A DNA stretch of 64,000 nucleotides from Bacteroidales bacterium (lineage in GTDB: Bacteria > Bacteroidota > Bacteroidia > Bacteroidales > G3-4614), in assembly GCA_017559955.1 (NCBI GenBank), contig JAFYPQ010000031.1, positions 1 through 64,000 of the forward strand. The letters run 5' to 3'. Positions 3,154 through 5,022 of this stretch are shown piece after piece. The stretch's first letter is position 1. Each line of letters starts with the position of its first letter. Under the pieces are notes generated by a model that searched no databases, had not been told where the DNA came from, and saw only the letters and a program-made list of their open reading frames with translations. The position numbers were made by a program, and so were the translations under genes.

Positions 3154-3188
3154 TGTTTTTTACTCCCCTACTACGCACAATATTTATA

Positions 3189-3229
3189 CAAATATATATA
3201 CGTGAGCAAGAAATATCAAGTTTACTTGA
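3189..3229 (-). promoter_or_regulatory. Promoter and palindrome of the cation-efflux gene
   Basis: On the minus strand TATATTTG (3189-3196) matches TAnnTTTG, and a TTG (3217-3219) lies about 20 bp upstream as the -33 element. A 6-bp inverted repeat, TCAAGT-TT-ACTTGA (3216-3229), overlaps that -33 element. A bound repressor there would block the promoter, which would suit a metal-responsive switch. Confidence 0.55.
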
Positions 3230-3317
3230 ATATTTTTCACTGCAAACAAAAGTATATTCGAAGTTTATTTAAATATATAATAATTTATCTTTATCTACAT
3301 TATTCCGATAATAAAGT

Positions 3318-3347
3318 TTTGTTTTAAAGTTTATTTGGCTACTTTTG
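3318..3347 (+). promoter_or_regulatory. Consensus promoter for the structured leader and HTH gene
   Basis: TTTG at 3318-3321 and TACTTTTG at 3340-3347 match both Bacteroidetes promoter elements with an 18-bp gap. Transcription would start near 3354, leaving a leader of about 290 nt before the HTH gene, or a free RNA if it ends earlier. Confidence 0.7.
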
Positions 3348-3482
3348 TAGTGCATTAATATAAATGGCAATTTTAACAAGAAAATTTGCCAATAAAACAT
3401 ATTGTGCAACATTGATTTTATTGTAAAAAGAGAAACAGTTTATTTCTTTTTTAATATAACTTGAACATTAAGTAATTATTCT

Positions 3483-3636
3483 CAAAACTGAAAACCGCCA
3501 ATTTTTCAAACGATACGAGAATAAGCATACTGAAGTGGTTCATGCCCCTATGCGAGGCGTGGATTGTTTGTGCTTATCTGTATCGGAAGGTGCTTGGCGG
3601 TACCTCAGTTTTGGATATGTAACAAACGGTTCCGCC
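3483..3636 (+). ncRNA. Structured, potentially bistable RNA
   Basis: Fold 1 is a long rod. 3483-3491 pairs with 3605-3613 (CAAAACTGA/TCAGTTTTG), 3494-3501 with 3594-3601 (ACCGCCAA/TTGGCGGT), 3511-3516 with 3580-3585 (CGATAC/GTATCG) and 3521-3527 with 3571-3577 (ATAAGCA/TGCTTAT). A central open loop and a terminal hairpin (3541-3546/3556-3561) complete it. Fold 2 pairs GGCGGTACC (3596-3604) with GGTTCCGCC (3628-3636), 8 of 9 bases, and uses the same bases as the closing stem of fold 1. It ends seven bases before the ATG at 3644. The rod with a central bubble also recalls 6S RNA. A translation-controlling leader or a free 6S-like RNA are both open; no known family is claimed. Confidence 0.6.
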
Positions 3637-3643
3637 TTTCATT

Positions 3644-3850
3644 ATGATACACATTGGCAAACTGATAGAGGAGGAGATGAAACGTCAAGAACGAACTCCT
3701 GTGTGGCTGGCAAAAAAGATTAATTGCGAGCGACCCAACGTCTATTATATCTTCCGCCAAGAATCTATCAATACCGATCTTCTTTTACGTATATCGCGTG
3801 CGTTAAATCACAACTTTTTTCTACACTACCTTAAGGCTTACGAAGAGTAA
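3644..3850 (+). CDS. Small helix-turn-helix DNA-binding protein
   Basis: A 68-aa protein of a type I recognise as common in Bacteroidales: an N-terminal helix (IGKLIEEEMKRQ), then an HTH region (about residues 18-60) with VWLAKKINCERPNVYYIF as the likely helix-turn-helix and SINTDLLLRISRALNHNFF after it. It should act as a cytoplasmic transcription factor of the XRE/Cro-like kind. The start is the ATG just after the structured RNA, without a Shine-Dalgarno. It lies upstream of, and on the same strand as, the five-gene envelope operon, so it may regulate that operon or its own leader; this is inference. Confidence 0.8.
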   Translation: MIHIGKLIEEEMKRQERTPVWLAKKINCERPNVYYIFRQESINTDLLLRISRALNHNFFLHYLKAYEE

Positions 3851-3999: not shown

Positions 4000-5022
4000 A
4001 TGAAAAAATTTATCTATGCCTTAATGGCATTTGCTGCAGTACTGGTTGGTTGTAGCGACAAAGAAGAGGATAGTGGCTACAAGTTTGGCAACTATCAATG
4101 GTTATCTGAAGAGATTCCTTCTGAATTGGGAATAGATTTAAAAGGAGAACTTCTTATTGATGCCGATGTTGATGAGCAAGGAGGAGTGTCGTTTGCTATC
4201 ATTGCGCAAAAGAATAGCAACATGGGTATTGAAGAGGGCGATATAATCTTATTGCAATCTGCAACCTATAATATTAGCAAAAAGGATGATAGCGGTAAGA
4301 GATATAGTCTGCTTGTTAATGAGCAGTTCTACTCAATAGAGTTCATCAATGAGACCACTCTAAAATTCTTCATTACCGAGGAGAGTTACTACATTTTTAA
4401 TCGCGTAACTAATAACTACTCTCTTTCAAACGCTAAAAAATTTGATGACTTAAATGTCTCTCTTATTCCCTCTAAAGAGTGCGATTGGGCTGGTGGCGAA
4501 ATAGAATTCTCTCTATCTAACGGTGCCCCTATCAAGAGCATAAAATTTGACGTTGTATCTCAAAATGTTACCGTTTACAACGATATGAATTCAATATTGG
4601 AGGATAATGTTATAACACTTGGTTTCTACGAGGCAAACGGAAAGATTGCTAATGCCAGCATGGTTATCACAGCAACCGACTATAACGGCAAAGAGTATTG
4701 GTGTACTATAATGTCGAAAGGCTGGCGTCCTGCTTTTTATAAAGAAGTTGGAGAGGAGTTTAAAGAGGTAGATCCATCACAAACTTGGGAAAGAGGAGGA
4801 AATTGCTGGATTGGAGTAGAAAGTTACGAAGGAGAGGTTGAGTACACAGGAAACACAGACTCATTTGAAGGTATAAGATACTCTAATACCCTATTCGATG
4901 TAGCAGGAAGCAGTAACAACAAAATTTGCTTCGATATTCCTCATACTAACGGATATGATACTTTTTACTTCTGGTATGGAGAAGAGTATTCTTTCGCAAC
5001 AAAAATTGAAATAACAGATTAA
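4000..5022 (+). CDS. Surface lipoprotein, first gene of envelope operon
   Basis: A 340-aa lipoprotein of unknown family. The start is taken at 4000 because MKKFIYALMAFAAVLVGC gives a proper signal with Cys18; an upstream in-frame start would add 16 unneeded residues. The residues after Cys (SDKEED) resemble the acidic surface-export signal of Bacteroidetes lipoproteins, so exposure on the cell surface is likely. The mature part looks all-beta, with two halves split near residue 150, the second starting SLIPSKECDWAGGEIEF in a BACON/Ig-like manner. It precedes the next gene by 11 bp. No catalytic motif is seen. Confidence 0.85.
   Translation: MKKFIYALMAFAAVLVGCSDKEEDSGYKFGNYQWLSEEIPSELGIDLKGELLIDADVDEQGGVSFAIIAQKNSNMGIEEGDIILLQSATYNISKKDDSGKRYSLLVNEQFYSIEFINETTLKFFITEESYYIFNRVTNNYSLSNAKKFDDLNVSLIPSKECDWAGGEIEFSLSNGAPIKSIKFDVVSQNVTVYNDMNSILEDNVITLGFYEANGKIANASMVITATDYNGKEYWCTIMSKGWRPAFYKEVGEEFKEVDPSQTWERGGNCWIGVESYEGEVEYTGNTDSFEGIRYSNTLFDVAGSSNNKICFDIPHTNGYDTFYFWYGEEYSFATKIEITD

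Follow-up and report, generated by a model that had tools for sequence, protein, structure and literature searches.

A long, strongly folded RNA directly precedes a small HTH gene in a Bacteroidales genome of 1.9 Mb and 86% completeness; the contig is C30, and the whole 64,000-nucleotide stretch analyzed here is referred to as the window. The question raised by this locus is whether the RNA is a leader that controls the adjoining gene, a free regulatory RNA, or a DNA element for which folding is a by-product. A sequence-only reading had proposed a leader with mutually exclusive folds next to the start codon. We find that mutually exclusive folds are conserved, with competing helices (3:4 and 1:2 in the nomenclature below) other than the one it had named.

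Organization of the leader and its two folds

A consensus promoter had been placed at 3318-3347. By sequence, this is a promoter of the Bacteroidota type (Table 1), for which we used the -7 consensus TAnnTTTG, and transcription is expected to start near 3352. The motif recurs 15-140 nt 5' of the rod in 84 of 133 homologous rods, compared to 12 of 133 in a control interval. The promoter region of the unit is adjoined by an intergenic repeat (3177-3302) that is high-copy, dispersed and partly tandem, with the palindromic core ATCAAGTTTACTTGAAT; this repeat is present dozens of times in genomes of the same genus.

An alignment of 34 leaders gives the segment order 1 - o - 2 - 3 - o' - 4 - U tract, from which two folds can be formed. 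Fold A combines o:o' with 2:3 and corresponds to the rod, and fold B combines 1:2 with 3:4 and yields a hairpin at the U tract. Folded alone, the rod (3483-3613) has a minimum free energy of -52.5 kcal/mol, and the folding z-score of positions 3470-3660 is -3.57 (1 of 200 shuffles was equally stable). The rod, earlier described as four perfect stems, is thus real, with helices that are nearly rather than strictly perfect. Its conserved competitor is the hairpin at 3556-3636, in which segment 3 pairs with segment 4 (-33.0 kcal/mol), and segment 1 is able to pair with segment 2. The competing helix of the sequence-only reading (3596-3604 with 3628-3636, GGCGGTACC and GGTTCCGCC) can pair as well (-11.9 kcal/mol), yet is not conserved in the family. 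As had been observed, the downstream hairpin arm ends seven bases before the ATG at 3644.

Table 1. Features of the promoter-RNA-HTH unit in the window (positions in the window).
Feature	Position	Strand	Remarks
Promoter, Bacteroidota-type	3317..3347	+	-33 TTTTG (3317-3321); -7 TACTTTTG (3340-3347); from sequence
Segment 1	3461..3483	+	TTGAACATTAAGTAATTATTCTC; partner of segment 2 in fold B; missed by the sequence-only reading
Outer rod strand o	3484..3508	+	CCGCCAA helix strand between conserved GAAAA and AAUUU; conserved unpaired columns
Segment 2	3512..3549	+	partner is segment 3 (fold A, rod) or segment 1 (fold B)
Segment 3	3556..3580	+	GGCGTGGATTGTTTGTGCTTATCTG; partner is segment 2 (rod) or segment 4 (hairpin at the U tract)
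Outer rod strand o'	3589..3612	+	GGTGCTTGGCGGTACCTCAGTTTT; conserved GGUG and ACCU flanks
Segment 4	3613..3636	+	..CAAACGGTTCCGCC; pairs with segment 3 to close the competing hairpin; from folding energy and covariation
U tract	3637..3639	+	only UUU in the window copy
HTH gene	3644..3850	+	68 aa, no Pfam family
Lipoprotein-like gene	4000..5022	+	probable cargo of the unit; in the nearest relatives, missing from this position between HTH gene and following gene

Conservation and coevolution of the paired segments

Covariation in relatives, named in advance as the test that could refute the proposed leader, was found for both folds. Among 26 close leaders, 86.5% of the cells are paired in fold A and 92.6% in fold B, compared to at most 45.3% and 49.6%, respectively, in slid controls. 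Both bases have changed in 12 pairs of fold B among these leaders, where shuffles gave 5.6 (0/500). For the rod, 103 matches in an alignment fitted to the model gave a covariation score of 0.748 (slid structures, at most 0.088) and compensated changes in 32 of 34 pairs.

To exclude any dependence on the alignment is the merit of a swap test, in which the own partner of a segment is compared with swapped partners; it was applied to 122 elements from many genera with 2000 permutations. Own partners scored -28.1 against -18.7 for swapped partners in helix 2:3, -26.3 against -17.3 in 3:4, -16.4 against -11.6 in 1:2, and -18.8 against -9.6 in the outer helix o:o' (0/2000 for each of the four). The control pairings 2:4 (699/2000) and 1:3 (1660/2000) were null. 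So was 1:4, a rod-closing pairing that we considered and rejected, with 699 of 2000 permutations as good. The helix of the sequence-only reading, o':4, was likewise discarded, own and swapped partners being equal (-10.8 and -10.8; 814 of 2000 permutations as good). Kinship among sequences can inflate tests of this kind, and the four null pairings carry the same kinship.

Of 118 elements, 114 have a 3:4 duplex that outscores every one of 60 shuffles; for 1:2, the weakest helix, no shuffle was as good in only 56 of 118. RNAalifold found no consensus for 84 segment 3-4 halves, because the sequences align poorly there. Fold A is predicted to be slightly more stable than fold B (median energy gap, fold B minus fold A, +4.8 kcal/mol; quartiles 1.1 to 8.9), with energies that ignore cotranscriptional folding, and by these predictions the two folds would be nearly equal in energy. 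A run of at least four U is present in 125 of 137 homologues; the window copy has three.

The substitutions within the helices are informative about the molecule under selection. G-U pairs far outnumber A-C mismatches, both in helix 3:4 (77 against 6, in a MAFFT alignment that was not structure-fitted) and in the rod (244 against 14, in the alignment fitted to the model). As a DNA palindrome would give equal numbers, this indicates that selection acts on the RNA. The covarying o:o' helix has flanks of unpaired bases that hardly vary (GAAA and AAUUU to one side, GGUG and ACCU to the other), a pattern suggestive of a putative binding site.

Distribution of the family and its downstream genes

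Searches against Rfam 15 with strict and lax settings matched no family in the window, 12 HTH loci and 18 other loci, in line with the earlier remark that no described family was recognized. The 6S RNA alternative that had been raised did not hold up: no match to RF00013 was obtained in the window or the whole genome, while the same search was positive in 5 of 14 control genomes. In plasmid, phage and viral collections the element is nearly absent at the sensitivity used. A search of the literature yielded no description of the RNA family; SnoA RNA and the 77-bp inverted repeat of P. gingivalis were considered and are different things. The family is apparently undescribed, and so are its putative antiterminator, formed by the rod, and its placement ahead of accessory genes that have nothing in common; the class of mechanism is known.

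The rod's covariance model derives from leaders near to that of the window, and divergent types, such as those at Bacteroides and Parabacteroides HTH loci, are under-counted by it. The model matches 110 of 295 Bacteroidales genomes (a lower bound), with at least 12 copies in the top genome, 12 being the maximum of candidates scored per genome. In a sample of 296 genomes from the phylum it matches 24, of which the window's genome is one. The genomes searched are mostly metagenome-assembled, and the copy numbers are lower bounds. The window's genome has three DNA-similar pairs of RNA and HTH gene, and six distinct RNA copies in all. At another locus (L310, G000:C29, approximately 4173-4297 and downstream) two RNA copies, the second of them degenerate, lie in tandem before a gene that by eye resembles formylglycine-generating enzymes.

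Leaders with the same rod and a different sequence are found 5' of the HTH gene in many relatives. The HTH gene itself has relatives in 53 of 295 sampled genomes of the order, with named Bacteroides, Parabacteroides, Odoribacter and Alistipes records among them. The element is nevertheless not tied to the HTH gene, as most copies precede other genes: the HTH gene is first downstream in 36 of 137 units and is not first in the other 101. RNAs are numerous in several genomes that give no HTH match. Conversely, among 80 named HTH loci, 25 have a sense-strand upstream-type RNA match, two of which are weak or approximately 1 kb or more away. The HTH profile was thus ruled out as the defining partner, since the RNA is common without it and only 25 of 80 HTH loci carry the RNA.

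Several HTH loci deserve separate mention. At L029 (G000:C35:3585-3725) the HTH copy is broken by a TAA stop, and the leader RNA is still recognized. At L009, positions 1321-1356 on the minus strand, 3' of the HTH gene, match DUF805b RNA (RF02914) with 31.6 bits against a gathering score of 35.6. Leaders at five Bacteroides, Parabacteroides and Alistipes HTH loci (L143, L146, L158, L170 and L171) end in TTCCCACGC and a U run and are unmatched by the model; such leaders are possibly a divergent subfamily. For the second leader type, at Bacteroides and Parabacteroides HTH loci, the result was mixed, 8 of 23 beating all shuffles.

The products of the first genes are otherwise highly varied, with 60 Pfam families among 109 proteins. 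They include proteins with T9SS tails, BACON proteins, lipoproteins, response regulators, LytTR proteins, DNA methyltransferases and radical SAM proteins, and, in several flavobacterial-type genomes, SusC-type receptors. Cargo of the defence type consists of a few methyltransferases and viperin-like radical SAM matches, for which we claim no enrichment. A gene of at least 100 aa on the same strand begins no more than 320 nt downstream in 65 of 123 cases, compared to 32 of 123 in the mirror control. Gene starts are most frequent at a distance of 79-106 nt from the rod, many of them at 80-86 nt, and another cluster lies at 14-44 nt. The start codon of most copies is found some 40-60 nt past the U run. 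At five loci with non-HTH genes (L201-L204 and L207), a motif resembling UUUUGGGG...GGCAAAC recurs in the spacer from U run to start codon, where it may offer segment 4 a third pairing partner.

Within the genus, the locus at purA varies. Genomes G000, G006 and G004 carry promoter, RNA and HTH gene there, followed by different genes (the view of G004 is cut by a contig end), and in G003 the whole promoter-RNA-HTH unit is absent. The leader therefore moves together with accessory genes, or comes and goes with them.

A candidate attenuator and its relation to known systems

By computation, both folds are conserved and coevolving, and the element is specific to the transcribed strand, behind promoters and before genes. 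Its topology is that of an attenuator, with 2:3 set against 1:2 plus 3:4 and the U tract: the conserved pairings 2:3 and 3:4 are exclusive, the U tract follows 3:4, and a promoter upstream and a gene downstream lie on the same strand. As the two folds exclude each other and one resembles a transcription stop signal, the element probably switches genes on and off. We consider it likely, with a probability of about 0.7, that the leader acts as a cis-acting attenuator RNA of accessory genes. In fold A, pairing of 2 with 3 and of the outer strands would form the long rod and leave segment 4 free, and the gene would be read (the ON state). In fold B, 1:2 and 3:4 would form, placing a hairpin of approximately 20 bp directly before the U tract, and transcription would stop before the gene. 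Where the U tract is weak, as in the window copy, the hairpin seven bases before the ATG could block the start of translation. The choice between the folds may be made by a protein or ligand bound to the conserved unpaired bases around o:o'. The HTH gene and the other downstream genes would be cargo; the HTH protein may regulate the unit, and the RNA family at large does not need it. An ORF of at least 8 codons is present in only 20 of 86 leaders, and there is thus no conserved leader peptide, which makes ribosome-coupled (trp-type) attenuation unlikely.

Counting against an attenuator are the UUU of the window copy, the slight advantage of fold A, the weaker helix 1:2, the missing RNAalifold consensus for the segment 3-4 halves, the lack of a conserved leader peptide, and downstream genes so diverse that they suggest no common signal. 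The first of these fits a switch of translation only, in which the start codon is gated by the alternative hairpin and transcription does not terminate. So does the end of the hairpin, which in HTH copies, the window's among them, is approximately 7 nt from the ATG. With most start codons well past a long U run, termination fits better, and we regard a purely translational switch as improbable. To a similar degree we doubt that the rod is a free regulatory RNA (6S-like or sRNA) acting in trans, with transcription as a rule stopping at the U tract and the downstream gene being reached only by read-through or from another promoter. An own promoter and a terminator-like end would indeed delimit a discrete RNA of approximately 180-300 nt, and the copy number in the top genome is in keeping with this. 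Against it stand the tight distance from rod to gene, the excess of same-strand genes over the mirror control and the missing 6S match, and a free RNA would not need the conserved second partner of segment 3.

Explanations at the level of DNA fare worse. The sequence is an inverted repeat composed of inverted repeats and the unit at purA is a variable locus, as expected of a palindromic mobile or recombination site (MITE or attC-like) that moves with its cargo. We hold this to be very unlikely, given that the G-U excess is unexpected for a double-stranded palindrome, promoter and U tract are on one side only, neither a copy array nor a recombinase neighbour was seen, and phage and plasmid records almost lack the element. 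Least probable of all is that the GGTTC-type arms, which are repeated and inverted, are operator sites bound by the HTH protein. An HTH gene is found next to roughly one copy in four (36/137); in the remaining units it is not first, several RNA-rich genomes are without an HTH match, and the arms covary, their sequence drifting freely while pairing is kept.

The attenuator reading can be extended to a Bacteroidota-wide RNA switch, in which one common cellular signal gates unrelated, horizontally variable accessory genes as a silencing or licensing device; this we offer only tentatively, and think it rather less likely than not to hold. If the attenuator is real, it would rank among the more widespread of the unnamed cis-regulatory RNAs in gut bacteria, as judged from the sampled Bacteroidales genomes and its absence from Rfam 15, and a single leader type would connect surface lipoproteins, SusC receptors, restriction enzymes and regulators. 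Both folds yield precise, testable predictions, and the signal sensed by the leader would pose a new question on gene control in Bacteroidota.

With trp-type four-segment attenuators the leader shares its position upstream of a gene and the alternative of 1:2 plus 3:4 with a U tract against 2:3. Unlike these, it has no conserved leader peptide, its 2:3 pairing is a long rod with an added outer helix and conserved unpaired bases, and a single RNA family precedes very diverse genes. Riboswitches with terminator platforms similarly have conserved internal-loop bases by covarying helices and an overlapping terminator, whereas our candidate has no Rfam match, no functional coherence among its genes and no assigned ligand. 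The likeness to 6S RNA is limited to the rod-like shape, as the present family has a conserved second fold and many copies in a single genome, placed before genes. FopS and GibS, sRNAs of Bacteroides thetaiotaomicron, are multicopy Bacteroides RNAs as well; the FopS consensus, unlike the family described here, is a single-stranded 5' stretch with a terminator hairpin, and FopS acts in trans (PMC11697453). Finally, Fremin and Bhatt (2021; PMC8040213) listed palindromic, terminator-like Bacteroidetes candidates of 80-132 bp, such as HMP2_4205; compared by description rather than by sequence, these resemble the leader family and might include it.
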